Source: a virus. Taken from it: a stretch of 22,807 nt of DNA. Position numbers and translations under genes: made by a program. The notes beneath the pieces are model-generated. The model was not told the origin of the DNA and made no database searches. It was given only the letters and a program-made list of their open reading frames with translations. Positions 4,957 through 22,659 of the stretch are shown here, piece after piece. Where the stretch lies: positions 1 to 22,807 of the IMG/VR virus record IMGVR_UViG_3300004369_000160. One strand, 5' to 3'. Position 1 is the stretch's first letter. The number at the start of each line of letters is the position of its first letter.

Positions 4957-5859
4957 ATGACAACAACACTAACAACTATTGACACCAACAACTTTGCAGA
5001 GATGGCTAAAGCTATGGGCATGTCTGTTGATACTGCTAACTCAAAGAAGCAGAGCAGCACACTTGCACGACTACGCTTGAACCACTCTGCCATTATGGGT
5101 ACTGCCGATGTTAACGGCAAGAGTGTCAACATGGAAGTAGTACCAGCAGGGACTTACAGACTAGAGATTCCTGATGGTCCAACTTACTATGCCCAATCAG
5201 TAAACCTTCGTCCATACCTACAACGCTTCATGTACAAGCGTTTTATCAAAGGTCATGGCGATGTACCTAACCGCTATGTCAAGACTGTCATGGCTGACAA
5301 TCTGAATATAGACTTGAAAGACAATGATGGTGGCTTCAATTGTGGTAAGCCAGCAGGATACATCCAAGACTTCAAGGCATTGCCAGAGAAGACACAAGAC
5401 CTTATCAAGCAGATTAAGCGTGTACGTGTAATGCTTGGTACAGTTGAACTGATTGACCCTGTAGATGCCAACGGTAATCCTGTTGAACTAGATGAGACTG
5501 CATTCATCTGGGAGATTGAGAACCGTGACGCATTCAAGGATGTCGGTGCAGTGTTTACTAAATTGGGCAAGATGAAGCGTCTTCCTGTTCAGCATATTGT
5601 AGTAGGTAATACTGAAGAACGTAAGTTGCCTAACGGTAATAGTTTCTTCCTGCCTGTGGTATCCCTTGATGTAACCAATACACTTGACCTTGGAGATAGG
5701 GAACATCACATGTTTGCTGACTTCATGGCATGGGTAGAGAATTATAATGAGTATATCATTAATGCCTACGCTGAGAAGTCATCACGACATGATGATACCA
5801 TTGATGCTGAAATCTCAGATGGTATCATTGACATTGAACTTGATGAGGAAGTAGCCTAA
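4957..5859 (+). CDS. Putative ssDNA-binding protein (acidic C-terminal tail)
   Basis: The 300-aa product matches no family I can name with certainty. Its centre is beta-rich and basic (for example RPYLQRFMYKRFIKGH at about 85-100), and its last 22 residues are strongly acidic, about 279-298, ending ELDEEVA. A basic core with an acidic C-terminal tail, placed directly after the polymerase and before recombination nucleases, is the usual context of phage ssDNA-binding proteins such as T7 gp2.5, so I infer that role. GAAGGAG at 4941-4947 gives a strong ribosome site in the 44-base gap after the polymerase, which suggests high expression, as expected for a stoichiometric binding protein. The stop overlaps the next gene by one base (TAATG). 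It could instead be an unrelated replication accessory protein. Confidence 0.5.
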   Translation: MTTTLTTIDTNNFAEMAKAMGMSVDTANSKKQSSTLARLRLNHSAIMGTADVNGKSVNMEVVPAGTYRLEIPDGPTYYAQSVNLRPYLQRFMYKRFIKGHGDVPNRYVKTVMADNLNIDLKDNDGGFNCGKPAGYIQDFKALPEKTQDLIKQIKRVRVMLGTVELIDPVDANGNPVELDETAFIWEIENRDAFKDVGAVFTKLGKMKRLPVQHIVVGNTEERKLPNGNSFFLPVVSLDVTNTLDLGDREHHMFADFMAWVENYNEYIINAYAEKSSRHDDTIDAEISDGIIDIELDEEVA

Positions 5860-16781: not shown

Positions 16782-16980
16782 TGATTTCTTTCCTACGGTT
16801 TCGGATAACCTCTAACTGCTTTGCAATACGTACAGCAGGATTTTTGTAGTCTATGCCAGACTTCATAGATGATGGTGCTTTACTTAACAATCCACCTGAT
16901 GGTTTATTATCTGGCTTTGGTAAGTTTTCAATATCCATATTTTTGTACATAAGTACAGCAGGATTAAGCTGTCTTGACAT
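16768..16980 (-). CDS. Hypothetical small basic protein, 70 aa
   Basis: Not recognised. A proline- and lysine-rich N-terminal half (NLPKPDNKPSGGLLSKAPSS) that is probably unstructured, followed by a basic helix (NPAVRIAKQLEVIRNRRKEI). No membrane segment or cysteine. AGGAAA lies before its ATG. It overlaps the 711-aa gene by 17 bases at its start and the 171-aa gene by 14 bases at its end, so it is translationally coupled on both sides. A short linker or assembly factor is possible but unsupported. Confidence 0.6.
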   Translation of the reverse strand: MSRQLNPAVLMYKNMDIENLPKPDNKPSGGLLSKAPSSMKSGIDYKNPAVRIAKQLEVIRNRRKEINETE

Positions 16981-19099
16981 CGTTTTGTTTCCTTTTACGT
17001 GATACTACAAAGTCCATAGCTTTTTTGGTAAGCCATTTTAGTGCAGGTTTGTTACTGATAAACTTAGCATATCTTTCACCATATTTGCCGTACAGTTTCT
17101 TAAACCATTTAGGTGCATCATACTGCAACCACACACGGAATACAAACCAACGTGTGTCTTGTTTGCCATACACTTCACGTGCTACCCAACAAAACATACC
17201 TGCACCAATAGCAGCACTACCAAGTGTACCAATTAAACTACCTACTGCAGTACCAGCAGCACTTGCAGATTGTTCATTAGCAATTTCTTTACGTGCCTTT
17301 GCATCTAGTTCTGCTATAGCCAATGCACTTATTCTATCCAGATAGTTTTCTGCAGACTTGTATGCCCACTCCATAGTATCTGCATGATAAGTCCACAGAT
17401 TATCGTAGGCAGTCTTGCTTATATCTAAAGCTGCTGTAGCATTTAATTCATTAGCACGGTTAATGGCAGCAGTATCTGCAGTAGCAATTTCTCTACGCCA
17501 TACAACATTGCTCTGTGCAATAGCTAATTGGTTTTGTGCATTGAACTGGTCACGTTGATTATTTAGTTCAGCATTAAATCGTTCTACTGTATTTACCTGA
17601 CCTGCATTAAACTGTGACTGTGCATTTGCTTGTGCTGAATTAAACTGTGATGTTTGAGAAGCAAGATTAGCAAAGAATTGGTCAACCTGATTTTGGCTAG
17701 TAGCATTAAACTGTGCAGCAGCATTAGTAGCAGCTTGGTCAGTAAACAATGCCTGTACTCTTTGTTGAGTATTAAACATTTGTGTTTGTTGACGGTTAGA
17801 CAGATTAGTCATATCCATCTGTAAGAAGTTCTGTGCATTCTGTACAGCTGCTTGTTGTCTGTTGTTTAGATTTTGTGTGTCCATCTGAGCAAGGGCAGCA
17901 GCTTCAGCCATTACCATCGCTTGTTTGTTAGATAGATTATTTAAATTCATCGTGTTAACAGCACGACTGTTTTCTAACTGCACCTGTTGTTCAGCAGTAA
18001 AGTTCATATTGGCAATATCACCAATACGTGCAGAGTTTTGTACACGTGCTTGGAAGTCTTGTGTAAACTCCATGCCCATAAACTCTGCTCTTTGTTGTGC
18101 CGCAAGCATAGCACGTTGCTGACGGTTTGTCAAGTTCTGCTGTTCAAATGAAGCAATAATACTTGCATCTGCCTGTGCAATAGGCAATGCGCTTTCTAAT
18201 GTAGCTTGTACAATAGCCTGACCAGCAAGACTGCTTGCACCTAGACCACGTGCAGCCATCGCTGCAGTAGCATTACGTAATGCACCAGCAGCCCATGCAG
18301 GTGGATTTTTAGCATCAAAGTTAGATGTAAGCTGCGCTAGTTGTCCTTGAACAGTAGCTTGTGTACTAGGTGTAGCGGTAGCAGCCTGTACCTGTTCAGT
18401 AAATGCAGCAGCAGTTTCAGCATCTGCACTACCACTAATAAGTTCACCATCCTGAATCTGTCGTTGTACAGGATTGTCAATAAGAATAGCATTGCCTTGG
18501 GCAGCAGTAACATTTCCTACACTGCTTGCTGTTTGCTGTGCAGCAGCTACTTGCGCACGTGGGTCATCAGGCGTAGTCTGAGCAGCCTGAGATGCTTGTA
18601 AAGCTGTGTTAATAGCAGGAGCAGCTTGTTGTGCTTGCATTAAGTTAGCTTGCATTTCTTGAGGAGCAGTTGCTTGATATGTACCAGCCATAGCTGTAGG
18701 CACAGCAACAGCACCAGTAACTTGCCCAGTTTCAGGCGCAATCATTTGAGATGCAGTAGGAGTTATACCAGCAGCAGTAACTACTCCACCAGCAGGTAGT
18801 CCGGGACTAGCCATCTGTTGTACACTAAAGTCAGCAAGACTTTGTCCCTCTTGTGGACCTGTAGTAACAGGAGTAGGTTGTTGTGGTAGTTGTGTAACAG
18901 CACCACCCTCTTGATACTTCTTACGTGCTACACCACCCTTTGCCATCTGCATGGCAGCATTAGTATAGCGTTGCATCTGCTGTTGACGCATTGGGTCATT
19001 TTCAATGTATTGCTGGAACTGGTTCATGTCACCAGAATAGCCCATAGCCTTTGCAATCTTATTCATTGCTTCAGGCTTAAATGCTTTAAACATTGCCAT
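16964..19099 (-). CDS. Hendecad-repeat coiled-coil virion protein with C-terminal CWVAREVYG domain, 711 aa
   Basis: A structural protein with four visible parts. Residues 1-60 are helical and Gln/Met-rich, with a glycine-lysine patch (AKGGVARKKYQEGG, 53-66). Residues 70-310 are low-complexity Ala/Gln/Thr/Pro. Residues 322-530 form nineteen consecutive 11-residue units, usually beginning with Asn, predicting a long coiled-coil rod. A glycine-zipper-like hydrophobic segment follows (616-636, GTAVGSLIGTLGSAAIGAG), then a basic aromatic domain (637-711) starting CWVAREVYG, which I recall at the C-terminus of various phage tail/fibre proteins. AGGGGA precedes the ATG, which shares a base with the previous stop. 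Rod plus membrane-type segment suits a tail-tip or DNA-ejection component; this is inference. Confidence 0.7.
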   Translation of the reverse strand: MAMFKAFKPEAMNKIAKAMGYSGDMNQFQQYIENDPMRQQQMQRYTNAAMQMAKGGVARKKYQEGGAVTQLPQQPTPVTTGPQEGQSLADFSVQQMASPGLPAGGVVTAAGITPTASQMIAPETGQVTGAVAVPTAMAGTYQATAPQEMQANLMQAQQAAPAINTALQASQAAQTTPDDPRAQVAAAQQTASSVGNVTAAQGNAILIDNPVQRQIQDGELISGSADAETAAAFTEQVQAATATPSTQATVQGQLAQLTSNFDAKNPPAWAAGALRNATAAMAARGLGASSLAGQAIVQATLESALPIAQADASIIASFEQQNLTNRQQRAMLAAQQRAEFMGMEFTQDFQARVQNSARIGDIANMNFTAEQQVQLENSRAVNTMNLNNLSNKQAMVMAEAAALAQMDTQNLNNRQQAAVQNAQNFLQMDMTNLSNRQQTQMFNTQQRVQALFTDQAATNAAAQFNATSQNQVDQFFANLASQTSQFNSAQANAQSQFNAGQVNTVERFNAELNNQRDQFNAQNQLAIAQSNVVWRREIATADTAAINRANELNATAALDISKTAYDNLWTYHADTMEWAYKSAENYLDRISALAIAELDAKARKEIANEQSASAAGTAVGSLIGTLGSAAIGAGMFCWVAREVYGKQDTRWFVFRVWLQYDAPKWFKKLYGKYGERYAKFISNKPALKWLTKKAMDFVVSRKRKQNDVKTA
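17510..18136 (-). repeat. Nineteen 11-residue (33-base) repeats within the 711-aa gene
   Basis: Reading from Asn322, the protein divides into 19 units of exactly 11 residues without a gap, to residue 530. Examples: NLSNKQAMVMA, NLNNRQQAAVQ, NAQNFLQMDMT, NLSNRQQTQMF, NSAQANAQSQF, NAGQVNTVERF, NAELNNQRDQF. Asn starts 14 of the 19 units, and in the distal ones Phe closes the unit (QF, RF). Eleven residues equal three helix turns, the hendecad pattern of straight or slightly right-handed coiled coils. At the higher order a 22-residue (66-base) similarity is visible. Confidence 0.85.
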
Positions 19100-19326
19100 T
19101 ATCTATTCCCCTGCAACACTCTATCTAGCTTATCTTCCAACCTGTGCAATGCTTCCATCAATCTATCCATGTCGTCACGTAACTCTGTCTTCGTTGCGTA
19201 GTCTTCACGTGTCCGGTTCAAAAGAATGCTGAGACGCTTGACTTCATTACTCAAGCCTACCAAGAACCACGCACCACCAGCTACGATGACACCAAGAAGC
19301 ATATCAATGAGGTTGGTCATTTCCAT
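19099..19326 (-). CDS. Small membrane protein with coiled coil (holin- or spanin-like)
   Basis: A 75-aa protein with one N-terminal membrane segment (about residues 5-24, LIDMLLGVIVAGGAWFLVGL) and a charged coiled-coil tail (VKRLSILLNR through LEDKLDRVL). I start it at 19326, where ATG shares a base with the previous stop (TGATG); an upstream in-frame ATG at 19356 would overlap the preceding gene by 31 bases. Phage proteins of this shape include holins, i-spanin-like proteins and uncharacterised virion-associated membrane proteins; no endolysin is adjacent in view, so I do not choose. Its Shine-Dalgarno (GGAG) lies in the conserved junction described in the repeat entries. Confidence 0.6.
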   Translation of the reverse strand: MEMTNLIDMLLGVIVAGGAWFLVGLSNEVKRLSILLNRTREDYATKTELRDDMDRLMEALHRLEDKLDRVLQGNR

Positions 19327-19340
19327 CAGGCGAGGTCTCC
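19324..19340 (-). repeat. Conserved cassette junction, copy 1 (paralog A end / membrane protein start)
   Basis: On the - strand this reads GGAGACCTCGCCTGATG. It encodes Gly-Asp-Leu-Ala-stop of the upstream gene, supplies GGAG as ribosome site, and provides the ATG of the next gene. See copies at 19809, 20228 and 20623. Confidence 0.75.
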
Positions 19341-19811
19341 CAAAATACCGATACAAATAAATGGGGAATCGTTCAAAACACTTAAAGAAGCTGTTTGAAA
19401 ATTAAAGTTAGAGGCAATTTTAACAGTTGTGGTGGTTACGTTAGAGTCACCATCGCTTGTATTTACACTTTGCGATTGACCATTATCGGAAACCCCTGAT
19501 TGTATCCTAGAACAGACAACTACAGCGTAGTCATTGTTTCCTGTAGCGTTTGTAAAATTTATATTGTAATCGCCAGTGCCATTGTCCGTTAAACTTGCAT
19601 TGTTCAGAGAATCACGAGCCGCTATAGCACCAGTGCCATTAAAGTTGACCCATTGTTTAGCCAGCCCCTGCTGAAGATTGGTTGTTGTTGAGCCACCCTC
19701 ACCTGTGACAGCAATGGAACCTGCCGATGTTTTGCCAGTTAATTCATCTGTTTTTGCTTCTGTAGTGTTTACATCAACAATCAGTGCCGCTAAGTCTGCT
19801 GCTCTACTCAT
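19326..19811 (-). CDS. Tail-fibre-like paralog A (type II), 161 aa
   Basis: Fourth and last of a tandem set of paralogs. After a distinct N-terminus (SRAADLAALIVDVNTTEAK) it shares with paralog C the block TSAGSIAVTGEGGS and NLQQGLAKQWVNFNGTG, then RDSLNNASLTDNGTGDYNINF, and ends with the set's hallmark -GDLA. Such modules, one compact domain with W.N..GT....RDS.N..S..D.GTGDY, are frequent in marine phage tail-fibre regions and are taken to be host-surface recognition or fibre-tip subunits; this is from family familiarity, not a search. The start overlaps paralog B by 4 bases (ATGA). Confidence 0.65.
   Translation of the reverse strand: MSRAADLAALIVDVNTTEAKTDELTGKTSAGSIAVTGEGGSTTTNLQQGLAKQWVNFNGTGAIAARDSLNNASLTDNGTGDYNINFTNATGNNDYAVVVCSRIQSGVSDNGQSQSVNTSDGDSNVTTTTVKIASNFNFQTASLSVLNDSPFICIGILGDLA
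19660..19676 (-). repeat. 17-bp direct repeat, paralog A copy
   Basis: GCCAGCCCCTGCTGAAG (plus-strand reading) is identical to 20516-20532 in paralog C. It encodes the shared LQQGLA block. The identical stretch is about 0.86 kb from its partner. Confidence 0.85.
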
Positions 19812-20230
19812 GCTAGGTCTCCTAACGTATGCACATCAATATAAACAGCATCATAATTTGTGCCTATTGTTGCGCCACCCGAAACTAAAAATCTGTAAAC
19901 GGTTGTTGTTGGTGCTACCACTGCTGTTCCACTTCCACCAGACTGGTGCATACCAATAAAAGTATATGCTCTATTCCCTGCACCGGTGTTTGACGATTGA
20001 GATGTTGTGTTGCTGTAATTTATGTTTGCAAAAGCAGACGATATGTTATGCGAAAATTCTCCACTTGCGTGGTCTGTAATGCTACTTAAATTCAGACTAT
20101 CCCTTGCCGAAGCAGTGGAACCATTCAGATTAATCCACGCCTTCGCACTTCCACCAGCCACATATTCCATAGCCACGCTGTTAGCACCAGCCGCATCCTT
20201 CAGGGTGTTTACTCTTAGTTCGCTTGCCAT
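19808..20230 (-). CDS. Tail-fibre-like paralog B (type I), 140 aa
   Basis: Third of the tandem paralogs. It begins MASELRVNTLKDAAGANSVAM and lacks the LQQGLAK block, going directly to GGSAKAWINLNGSTASARDSLNLSSITD, like paralog D. The second half is variable, Ser/Thr/Gly-rich, and strand-like, and the end is -GDLA. Start taken at 20230, whose ATG shares one base with the stop of paralog C (TAATG); an ATG at 20263 would add eleven residues inside paralog C. A surface-recognition role is inferred from tail-region location and the conserved-core/variable-end pattern. Confidence 0.66.
   Translation of the reverse strand: MASELRVNTLKDAAGANSVAMEYVAGGSAKAWINLNGSTASARDSLNLSSITDHASGEFSHNISSAFANINYSNTTSQSSNTGAGNRAYTFIGMHQSGGSGTAVVAPTTTVYRFLVSGGATIGTNYDAVYIDVHTLGDLA
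19809..19822 (-). repeat. Conserved cassette junction, copy 2 (paralog B end / paralog A start)
   Basis: Reads GGAGACCTAGCATG on the - strand, with the stop TGA following in an ATGA overlap rather than the TAATG of copies 3 and 4. GGAG lies 7 bases from the ATG here and 10 in the others. Confidence 0.75.
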
Positions 20231-20244
20231 TATGCTAGGTCTCC
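20228..20244 (-). repeat. Conserved cassette junction, copy 3 (paralog C end / paralog B start)
   Basis: Reads GGAGACCTAGCATAATG on the - strand, then GCAAGC of the next gene. It encodes -GDLA-stop and the start of paralog B, whose first residues (MAS) are the same as in paralog C. Confidence 0.8.
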
Positions 20245-20625
20245 TTTTACTGATGTACAGCAAAAATCACTATCAGCGTATGAACCACCGTTATTTACTT
20301 GCTGAGTAGAATAACTGCTTGTAGCCATTGCACTTATTCTGAGACCATTTACAGCAGGGCCAACAATCCCAGAAGAATAAGCTAGAGAATATCCTGCATT
20401 ATTCATAGCGTTGCTTATATTTATTGTCCCTTGACCCGTTCCAACGTCAGTGACTGATGTCACGTTTTGGCTGTCCTGAACAACGTGAGATGTGTTATAT
20501 TGCACCCAAACCTTCGCCAGCCCCTGCTGAAGTGATTGCGTTGCACTACCACCCTCGCTAGTAACTGTGATATCACCTGCGCTGGTTACACCCTGAAGGG
20601 CATCTACTTTGAGTATGCTTGCCAT
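20230..20625 (-). CDS. Tail-fibre-like paralog C (type II), 131 aa
   Basis: Second of the tandem paralogs. It begins MASILKVDALQG, then TSAGDITVTSEGGSATQSLQQGLAK in two pieces shared with paralog A, followed by VWVQYNTSHVVQDSQNVTSVTD, GTGQGTINI and NNAGYSLAYSS. The C-terminus has two adjacent cysteines (DFCCTSV) and ends -KGDLA. The start shares a base with paralog D's stop. No transmembrane segment. The half after residue 80 is the most divergent from its siblings, as expected where a fibre tip meets different receptors; that interpretation is inferred. Confidence 0.66.
   Translation of the reverse strand: MASILKVDALQGVTSAGDITVTSEGGSATQSLQQGLAKVWVQYNTSHVVQDSQNVTSVTDVGTGQGTINISNAMNNAGYSLAYSSGIVGPAVNGLRISAMATSSYSTQQVNNGGSYADSDFCCTSVKGDLA
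20516..20532 (-). repeat. 17-bp direct repeat, paralog C copy
   Basis: Identical to 19660-19676. Recombination between the two would delete or duplicate one two-gene unit (parts of C and A plus all of B). Confidence 0.85.
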
Positions 20626-20639
20626 TATGCGAGGTCTCC
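20623..20639 (-). repeat. Conserved cassette junction, copy 4 (paralog D end / paralog C start)
   Basis: Reads GGAGACCTCGCATAATG on the - strand, followed by GCAAGC as in copy 3. It differs from copy 3 by one base (CTC for CTA). Confidence 0.8.
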
Positions 20640-20999
20640 GTGAACTAGGCTATACGCATTATCAATATCTACATCGGTAGTATTACTTACGGCGTAGAAA
20701 TAGCCGTAAGCGTATGCGGAAGCAGTCAGTGTTACAGAGGAAACCACCACAAAGTAGTATTGGTTTTCGTCTCCGCTGCCAGCAATGTTGTAGTTGGCGT
20801 TAGTCATACTGCTGGTGAGATTGTTGGTGTAATCTCCCGTGCCACGGTCAACCACCGAAGCGATATTAAAACTGTCCCGCAGCGTTGGCCCTGTCCCGTC
20901 AAGGTTAGCCCAAGCCTTCGCGGCATACTGCCCCGTCAGGGCAACTGGTCCAGTACCTGCCTTATCCGCAATGGTATCTACATTAAGAACGCTAGTCAT
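20625..20999 (-). CDS. Tail-fibre-like paralog D (type I), 124 aa
   Basis: First of the four tandem paralogs in transcription order. It begins MTSVLNVDTIADKAGTGPVAL, then AAKAWANLDGTGPTLRDSFN, VVDRGTGDYTNN and a strand-rich variable end (YYFVVVSSVTLTASAYAYGYF), closing with -HGDLA. Start set at 20999, where ATG shares a base with the stop of the upstream fibre gene; the ATG at 21014 would add five residues (MEHCI) that its relatives lack. Most similar in arrangement to paralog B. Confidence 0.66.
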   Translation of the reverse strand: MTSVLNVDTIADKAGTGPVALTGQYAAKAWANLDGTGPTLRDSFNIASVVDRGTGDYTNNLTSSMTNANYNIAGSGDENQYYFVVVSSVTLTASAYAYGYFYAVSNTTDVDIDNAYSLVHGDLA

Positions 21000-21466: not shown

Positions 21467-21778
21467 TTATGGTTTAGTAGGCCACGTTACGTCATCAAGA
21501 GATGTGGCGTTATCTGTGATGTCACGCAGGGCTTGGCGGTAAGTTGTCATGGCGGCTGTCATGGTTTGGTCGGACAACCCGTAGTGGTCAGTATCAGCCA
21601 GCCGCTTGGTACGTTCAGTACGTAGGGCATCTAGCTTGGCTGCATTTTCAAGTTCAGTCTGCTTTGTTGCAACAGCGTCTGCATCCCAAGATACTACGTT
21701 GCCGTTTGCATCGTAGGCTGTTTCACCCCGGATGGACACAACAGAAGAATAAAGATTGTATATAGCCTCGTGCTTCAT
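21467..21778 (-). CDS. Phage tail assembly chaperone-like protein, 103 aa
   Basis: Resembles small tail-fibre/tail assembly chaperone proteins: a variable N-terminal half (YNLYSSVVSIRGETAYDANG), then a helical region LDALRTERTKRLADTDHYGLSD and the typical closing pattern YRQALRDITDNATSLDDVTWPTKP (in two parts here). These proteins help fibres fold or attach and are not usually part of the mature virion. Its placement between fibre modules fits. It overlaps the upstream gene by 4 bases (ATGA). The family match is recalled, not searched. Confidence 0.75.
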   Translation of the reverse strand: MKHEAIYNLYSSVVSIRGETAYDANGNVVSWDADAVATKQTELENAAKLDALRTERTKRLADTDHYGLSDQTMTAAMTTYRQALRDITDNATSLDDVTWPTKP

Positions 21779-22257
21779 ACCGCTATCTCCGTTAGTGTTA
21801 TGCTACTTACGCCATCGATTGTGGTTTCATTGCTACCACCCCTATTGATGTACACTGTCGCTGCATATTTATGCTCTACATAAACTGTATAGTCTATTGC
21901 GCTTGTGGTGTTGTGGTCGTGATAAATTTGACCGCCATTATTAGACATTGAATAAGTGGAATTACCGCCAAGCCTTGCCCCAAAGAAACGTGAACTAAAC
22001 GCTGTGTCAGTTCCAGTTTGTCCTATGTCGTGATATACCATATGATATGAACCATATGCCGCACCTGAGTTGTTGGATGAGGTACAGAGACTGTAGGTCA
22101 CAAGTATTTTGCTGGTAGCATCTGTCGGTGTAATAGTAGCAGTTAATCCAGTTGCTACGGCAGTATCGGCAGATAAAACTAGGCTTTCCTCAGTTTCATA
22201 AAATGAGTGAACTACCTGCAAAACAGTTCCGGGCTGTGTTACTATGGTCAACGCCAT
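21775..22257 (-). CDS. Tail-fibre-type beta-rich protein, 160 aa
   Basis: A beta-rich protein of a type seen in phage tail-fibre regions: opening TIVTQPGTVLQVVHSFYETE, a middle with SADTAVATGLTATITPTDATSK ending in KILVTYSLC, and a closing SSITLTEIAV. Between these is a variable His/Tyr/Gly-rich portion (YHMVYHDIG, GGQIYHDHN). Such modules are commonly placed at the distal end of fibres, so host recognition is the likely role, inferred. GGAGATAGATAA precedes the ATG, giving a good ribosome site after the 33-base gap from the upstream gene. Confidence 0.62.
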   Translation of the reverse strand: MALTIVTQPGTVLQVVHSFYETEESLVLSADTAVATGLTATITPTDATSKILVTYSLCTSSNNSGAAYGSYHMVYHDIGQTGTDTAFSSRFFGARLGGNSTYSMSNNGGQIYHDHNTTSAIDYTVYVEHKYAATVYINRGGSNETTIDGVSSITLTEIAV

Positions 22258-22282: not shown

Positions 22283-22303
22283 CCCTACGCTTATGCGTAA
22301 GGG
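22283..22303. other. Hairpin spanning the stop codon of the 122-aa gene
   Basis: CCCTACGC at 22283-22290 can pair with GCGTAAGGG at 22295-22303 (8 pairs, one bulged A). The stop codon (TAA on the - strand, 22291-22293) lies in the TTAT loop. There is no following T-run, so it is not a standard intrinsic terminator. Confidence 0.5.
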
Positions 22304-22659
22304 CTATCACCAAGCAAGTCTGCGTTCCATGCTGCTTTGAGTTCAGCAATCGTGCTGGCACTGTCAATAGCGGCAGCAGCAGGTGCATCACGAAGGGCAG
22401 TCTTTGCAGCAGCAATAGCACTGGTATCTGCACCAGTCTCTAGTGCCTTCATCAGTTCCACGTCCTTTGCTTCGAGCAACGGTTTACGTGCTTCACGAAT
22501 CTTGTCACGGAAGATTGCCCGTGCAGAATCCATGTCTTCACTGATTACGCTTCCATTAAGAGACCATGCACCACGAAAGTGACGGTCAGAAGGAACGGTA
22601 GCCGTGGAAGCGTCAATCTGGTTCCCGTCCTTATCTACGATGTATGTTGTTACAGCCAT
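22291..22659 (-). CDS. Tail-assembly-chaperone-like protein, 122 aa
   Basis: A helical protein of a type recurring beside phage fibre genes. It has an N-terminal beta hairpin (TTYIVDKDGNQI), the motif VPSDRHFRGAW (22-32), then SEDMDSARAIFRDKIREAR and LLEAKDVELMKALETG, and a C-terminal helix pair (AAAKTALRDAPAA, then TIAELKAAW). Its role in fibre folding or attachment is inferred from context. GGAG lies 9 bases upstream of the ATG. The upstream partial gene ends with a similar PSTREWRNAW motif, suggesting the two are related. Confidence 0.65.
   Translation of the reverse strand: MAVTTYIVDKDGNQIDASTATVPSDRHFRGAWSLNGSVISEDMDSARAIFRDKIREARKPLLEAKDVELMKALETGADTSAIAAAKTALRDAPAAAAIDSASTIAELKAAWNADLLGDSPYA

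Follow-up and report, generated by a model that had tools for sequence, protein, structure and literature searches.

Four consecutive minus-strand genes in a 22.8-kb virus record from an HMO-2011-type marine podovirus (the whole record, referred to here as the window), designated D, C, B and A in order of transcription, probably encode slot-specific docking peptides joined to interchangeable beta-sandwich receptor-binding tips, drawn from a pool shared between slots and phage lineages. Comparison of sequences across related loci established slot-coded N-termini, cross-slot exchange of the bodies behind them, sharp edges to the exchanged segment, and overlap of the C-terminal GDLA codons with a Shine-Dalgarno (SD) element.

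Each product would be laid out as a 26–50 aa N-terminal plug set by the slot, an AKxW boundary, and a body of ~95–110 aa ending in GDLA. We infer a location in the virion, where each plug would attach its tip at a dedicated site, on the tail or on an adaptor fibre (P1/P2, T7-fibre-N-like), and where the body, of predicted fold, would bind host-surface receptors. Homology-driven recombination would swap the body whole, with AKxW at one end and GDLA/SD/stop at the other as its short conserved edges. The replacement would come from a pool common to slots and phage lineages, and tropism would change while assembly stays undisturbed. The chances seem evenly balanced that the array is combinatorial in the fullest sense. 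A virion would then have about eight position-coded plugs, each able to take any one of thousands of ~95-aa tips, or a C1q, VLQVV or other fold, from a pool that spans the ocean and several phage lineages. Recombination would act at two short standard edges, and one of these doubles as the ribosome-binding site for the gene that follows.

Four tandem genes in a slot-ordered array

The window PolA, aligned over 100% of its length, shares 78.6% identity with that of Puniceispirillum phage HMO-2011, and the gene order integrase-primase-helicase-PolA-RNR-MazG is the same in both, so that PolA type and gene order alike place the window among HMO-2011-type phages. The ORFs of D, C, B and A, counted from their ATG starts (Table 1), follow one another with stop/start overlaps of TAATG or ATGA. 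In a profile search, all four proteins matched phrog_11355 ('tail fiber protein') with E values of 1e-10 to 1e-16; the same family was matched by 119 of 120 aligned relatives, a match being counted over the W..GT/RDS.N/GTGDY core. Used as a query against the record that makes up the window, A retrieved the other three as paralogs (E 1e-9 to 6e-19). These matches confirm an earlier note on this DNA, which had described the genes as four tandem fibre-like paralogs.

Table 1. Features of the array region in the window
Feature	Position	Strand	Description
R	22291–22659	-	Conserved; matches phrog_20196; lies after the upstream trio and ahead of slot m
Slot m	21775–22257	-	MALT-type start and a different (VLQVV-type) body
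Tail fibre assembly chaperone (Phage_tail_APC)	21467–21778	-	PF16778, E 5e-12; directly after slot m
P2	20999–21457	-	Adaptor gene (152 aa) at the head of the downstream array; family T7-fibre-N-like
D (slot b1)	20625–20999	-	MTSVLNVDTIADKAG N-terminus and beta-sandwich body (predicted fold)
D/C junction	20619–20639	-	GGAGACCTCGCATAATGG; GDLA codons, Shine-Dalgarno and stop/start overlap; direct repeat D1
C (slot b2)	20230–20625	-	MASILKVD...LQQGL N-terminus; body known from slot a3 of relative L167
C/B junction	20224–20244	-	Same element as D/C junction
B (slot b3)	19808–20230	-	MASELRVNTLKDAAG N-terminus and body
B/A junction	19809–19823	-	GGAGACCTAGCATGA; ATGA overlap
A (slot S4)	19326–19811	-	MSRAADLAALI start, class-2-like linker (LQQGL) and body
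A/E junction	19320–19340	-	Same element as D/C junction
E	19099–19326	-	Small gene, conserved, following S4; product of 75 aa from ATG 19326
Z	16964–19099	-	711-aa conserved gene closing the region; served as syntenic anchor

The motifs reported for the four proteins were also described correctly: TSAG..VT.EGGS and LQQGLAK are present in C and A and absent from D and B, and all four end in GDLA behind divergent second halves. The shared core holds for every pair (42–52% identity over 45 aa), but C (DSQN, GTGQG) and B (ASGEF) follow its motif only loosely. The alternation of two types is real and is limited to the N-terminal segment, where identity was 42% for D-B, 61% for C-A and 21–29% for the other pairs; the linker of C and A shares 76% DNA identity over 38 nt. 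Tail identity was 15–27%, and whole-body identity was 30–36% for every pair. The earlier note had held that a tree lacking D-B and C-A pairs would count against its reading, and the bodies do not pair in this way.

Syntenic loci were gathered from IMG/VR with four queries, together with HMO-2011 itself; nearly all are IMG/VR contigs. The region in relatives runs P1-a1-a2-a3-Q-R-m-P2-b1-b2-b3-S4-E-Z, an array of about eight slots (a1–a3, m, b1–b3, S4) that is present also in the isolate HMO-2011. Exactly three core genes, in a fixed N-terminal order, were found in 86 of the 91 upstream arrays ending in Q. The downstream arrays (n = 150) have b1-b2-b3 and then S4, with three core genes in 96 and four in 24, many of the remainder being interrupted by contig ends. 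The characteristic N-termini are MSTLKADTI in a1, MSEIKVDTLT/MSTILVNTLT in a2, MALGKIKADT/MAGKIIADTL in a3, MTS[VQ]LNVDTI in b1, MASILKVD/MASELKVD in b2, MASELRVNTLKDA in b3 and MSKAAELA in S4. Because N-termini track position in the array, D was assigned to b1, C to b2, B to b3 and A to S4. At its N-terminus D reaches 92% identity with slot b1 genes, the 5' end of B shares 89–98% DNA identity with slot b3 of relatives, and the first 43 bp of A share 91% DNA identity with the S4 start of contig L012. Slot S4 usually holds a tip of 330–370 aa, and a core body in about a dozen contigs including the window; S4-core genes resembling A occur in L086–L093, those of L087–L093 with a class-2-like linker and body. 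A resembles C because the S4 slot here holds a class-2-like linker and body.

The LQQGLAK linker common to C and A, with their 61% N-terminal identity, and its absence from both D and B would fit duplication of a two-gene unit followed by divergence of the tips in place, as previously proposed. This origin is very unlikely, since relatives have three positional classes plus S4 rather than two, A begins with an S4-type start, and the bodies are unpaired and mobile between slots and phages; nor does the order of the upstream and downstream arrays in related phages follow a two-gene unit.

The strict composition and order of the upstream trio would fit a complex of fixed stoichiometry, and the same slots and the same swapping might then serve hetero-oligomers on one fibre (for example, b1-b2-b3 forming one tip), with plugs pairing mutually. 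We regard this arrangement as rather unlikely, because the trio bodies vary independently, so that a body-body interface cannot be conserved, and because the S4 and m slots lie outside the trio. Separate docking of each tip through its own plug is the reading we prefer. The earlier suggestion of several receptor-binding subunits stands as far as several fibre-type subunits in one virion module are concerned; that they bind receptors is probable only.

In place of the array, other HMO-2011-type contigs carry at this locus a single long fibre-like gene, some 830–1460 aa in length. A similar array occurs in L088, L152, L302, L217 and like contigs, some of them fragments, which lack a close HMO-2011-type PolA, and in some such contigs the array is followed by a different structural gene (MPLTKLQFKPG...). 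These contigs suggest that the array as a whole passes from one phage lineage to another.

N-termini, bodies and slots

For comparison between slots, 500 non-redundant array proteins were split at the AKxW motif. N-terminal identity was 63–70% within a slot versus 23–44% between slots (59% for the related a2/b2). Identity over the 45-aa core was the same within and between slots (37–43%), and so was that of the tails (21–23%). In a scan with a 10-residue window, for which loci fetched with gene A were left out, identity just before the boundary was 0.59–0.60 for the same slot versus 0.22–0.36 for different slots; at the AK codons it was 0.33 for both.

The nearest N-terminus in another locus gave the right slot in 453 of 479 cases (94.6%) and the nearest body in 129 of 479 (26.9%), chance being 17.1% in each comparison; the slight excess for bodies is expected from shared descent. 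On the N-terminal tree the slot label changes 12 times, against a minimum of 6 and a shuffled value of 80.6; on the body tree it changes 77 times (shuffled 80.8; a value as low was reached in 27 of 200 shuffles). The 772 non-redundant genes comprise 628 bodies at 70% identity, for which Chao1 gives about 2,100 as a lower bound, but their N-termini fall into no more than 53 types, few of which are common.

Exchange of bodies and its edges

Among body pairs with at least 70% identity, 53 of 80 occupy different slots. Different-slot pairs at 70–90% identity number 31, and 24 of these also come from non-homologous slots. Unrelated N-termini can precede bodies that are 77–100% identical, and HMO-2011, an isolate, provides examples. 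Within a single array, 2 of 787 body pairs reached at least 60% identity, a rarity that argues against recent local duplication.

DNA identity in cross-slot pairs climbs at the AK codons (0.52, 0.80 and 0.91 over successive 9-nt steps) and drops at the stop codon (from 0.92 to 0.63), the shared edges being only about 12–15 nt long. Most body pairs are 20–45% identical whatever their slots, which would fit slots that are ancient paralogs, with bodies diverged to saturation and little or no cross-slot exchange. The closely matching bodies behind unrelated N-termini, HMO-2011 included, and the edges at the DNA level make this account highly improbable.

Judged by DNA identity, C of the window is itself a b2/a3 hybrid: nt 7–141 of the padded gene share 92% DNA identity with slot b2 of contig L167, and nt 129–422 share 87% DNA identity (90% aa) with slot a3 of the same contig. 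In HMO-2011, the body in slot m shares 98% identity with a b3 body of contig L135, and the body in b1 shares 77% with an a1 body of that contig. Cross-slot bodies in this cultured phage argue against cross-slot hybrids being metagenome assembly artefacts at repeated junctions. An origin by misassembly draws on the repetition of the junctions and on the source of nearly all loci in IMG/VR contigs, and is most unlikely in view of the shortness of the shared edges, the divergence of many pairs (the 31 different-slot pairs at 70–90%, and C at 87% DNA identity), and the presence in HMO-2011 of the same slots with best body matches in other slots.

Extreme variability beside a constant part is also what programmed diversification would produce, by a diversity-generating retroelement or by invertible cassettes. 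This is exceedingly improbable here: bodies are replaced whole, not codon by codon, no inverted repeats flank them, and no reverse transcriptase is annotated in the complete HMO-2011 record or was matched in the window genes searched. Shufflons and invertible fibre segments (R64 pilV, Mu, P1) combine a constant N-terminal part with alternative C-terminal parts; those systems invert segments, whereas the array lacks inversion sites and exchange occurs between genes and genomes. One inverted repeat pair was seen at 21526–21542/21962–21978 (17 nt, 94% complementary, 419 nt apart); it spans the chaperone and slot m genes, outside the four genes.

The GDLA codons are strongly biased, with GGA used in 99% of cases versus 23% elsewhere, GAC in 91% versus 34%, and GCA in 92% versus 40%, and an SD-like core lies just ahead of the next start in 492 of 499 gene ends. 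The bias and the SD-like core together indicate that the end of one gene is the ribosome-binding site of the next. The Leu of GDLA is kept although its codon varies (CTC, TTA, CTA), and therefore the peptide itself is probably under constraint too. Direct repeats in the window array fall at the junctions between genes and in the linker that C and A share, and promoter-like matches were near the shuffled expectation, with no clear signal between slots. Exchange might rely on the brief homology that the edges offer, and an exonuclease and an endonuclease encoded by the phage itself (phrog_1990, phrog_945) may take part. The edges may instead be sharp because selection keeps the hybrids that work, those joined where a join is tolerated, and not because recombination happens there.

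Predicted fold, fibre context and known systems

AlphaFold2, run on C with an alignment from its own locus, gave an eight-strand body at residues 39–127 (pLDDT mostly >80, pTM 0.69), with an overall pLDDT of 82.6 and values of 90 or more at residues 41–80. We read this body as a predicted beta-sandwich, the model output giving strands rather than topology. The variable tail contributes several body strands in the models and does not form a separate domain. In the model of A, the S4 plug is a helix (residues 2–16), followed by a strand pattern like that of C. N-terminal plugs were modelled with low confidence (pLDDT 56–70 beyond the first ~10 residues). A PDB sequence search with the family profile returned nothing below E 0.2. 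No Pfam family, C1q (PF00386) included, exceeded its cut-off in the window bodies, and Pfam gave scattered single matches only among 120 family members.

A fibre role is supported by phrog_11355, by the P1/P2 family with PF03906, by the tail-fibre chaperones, and by the long fibre-like gene at the locus in other contigs. P2 matched phrog_18345 (tail fiber, 1.6e-7) and shares 96% DNA identity with relatives. PF03906 (Phage_T7_tail) was matched by 16 of 32 P1/P2 family members (best 8.7e-7), with no match for the window P2 itself; the HMO-2011 P1 homolog scored 23.7 bits against a curated cut-off of 25.2. Of 60 VLQVV-type genes, 30 are followed by an APC chaperone gene, as against none of 1007 core genes. 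From synteny and variability, we infer that the array products are phage receptor-binding proteins at the tail.

Other body types occupy the same slots. The slot m bodies of other contigs are of the core, VLQVV, C1q-like or S4-like type, and slot S4 of HMO-2011 holds a 364-aa tip. Slot b2 of HMO-2011 (phage1322_31, L005:8165-8689) encodes a C1q-domain protein (PF00386, E 4e-10). The start of phage1322_31 is slot-b2-like, so that here a plug of this kind precedes an unrelated fold.

Modular N/C fibres and hypervariable marine host-recognition islands are already known (PMC8262889, PMC10386132, PMC3909814). A conserved N-terminal anchor with a variable C-terminal tip occurs in modular receptor-binding proteins such as those of Klebsiella phages (PMC8262889) and in podovirus fibres, whose points of exchange are described as lying at different places in the fibre (PMC10386132). 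The array shares with these a conserved attachment end and an exchangeable receptor-binding end; it differs in having 7–8 small consecutive genes, each with its own short slot-specific plug, in drawing on one body pool for all slots, and in its sharp edges. Marine metaviromic islands contain tail fibre and C1q genes and PF03906 fibres, and the N-terminal part of the C1q genes recruits better than the C1q domain, according to the available part of that report (PMC3909814). Like the array, those islands hold hypervariable host-recognition modules of marine phages, while a slot-ordered array or cross-slot body exchange is not described in the part available. In cultured HMO-2011, the same array (phage1322_25 to _42) is annotated as separate putative tail fibre proteins, without the slot logic. 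A literature search found no description of position-coded plugs with one cross-slot body pool, which is weak evidence as most subscription journals lay outside its scope.

If correct, the array of slots and tips would explain many tropisms on one phage backbone, provide a rule for telling the structural from the host-specific part of short 'tail fiber' ORFs, and offer a natural parts list for studying the evolution of phage host range. It is a likely way of continually changing the bacterial surfaces that can be gripped, in a common group of ocean viruses.

A search of MAG contigs returned four weak relatives only and no host link, and PADLOC gave no match for the unassigned window genes. Z is rich in Gln, Asn and Ala, with repeated 'NLNNRQQ' motifs and no PHROG or Pfam match, and its synteny is kept. 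A 300-aa gene between PolA and the exonuclease (4957–5859, plus strand), with no family match in Pfam, PHROGs or PADLOC, keeps its position in HMO-2011 (phage1322_13).
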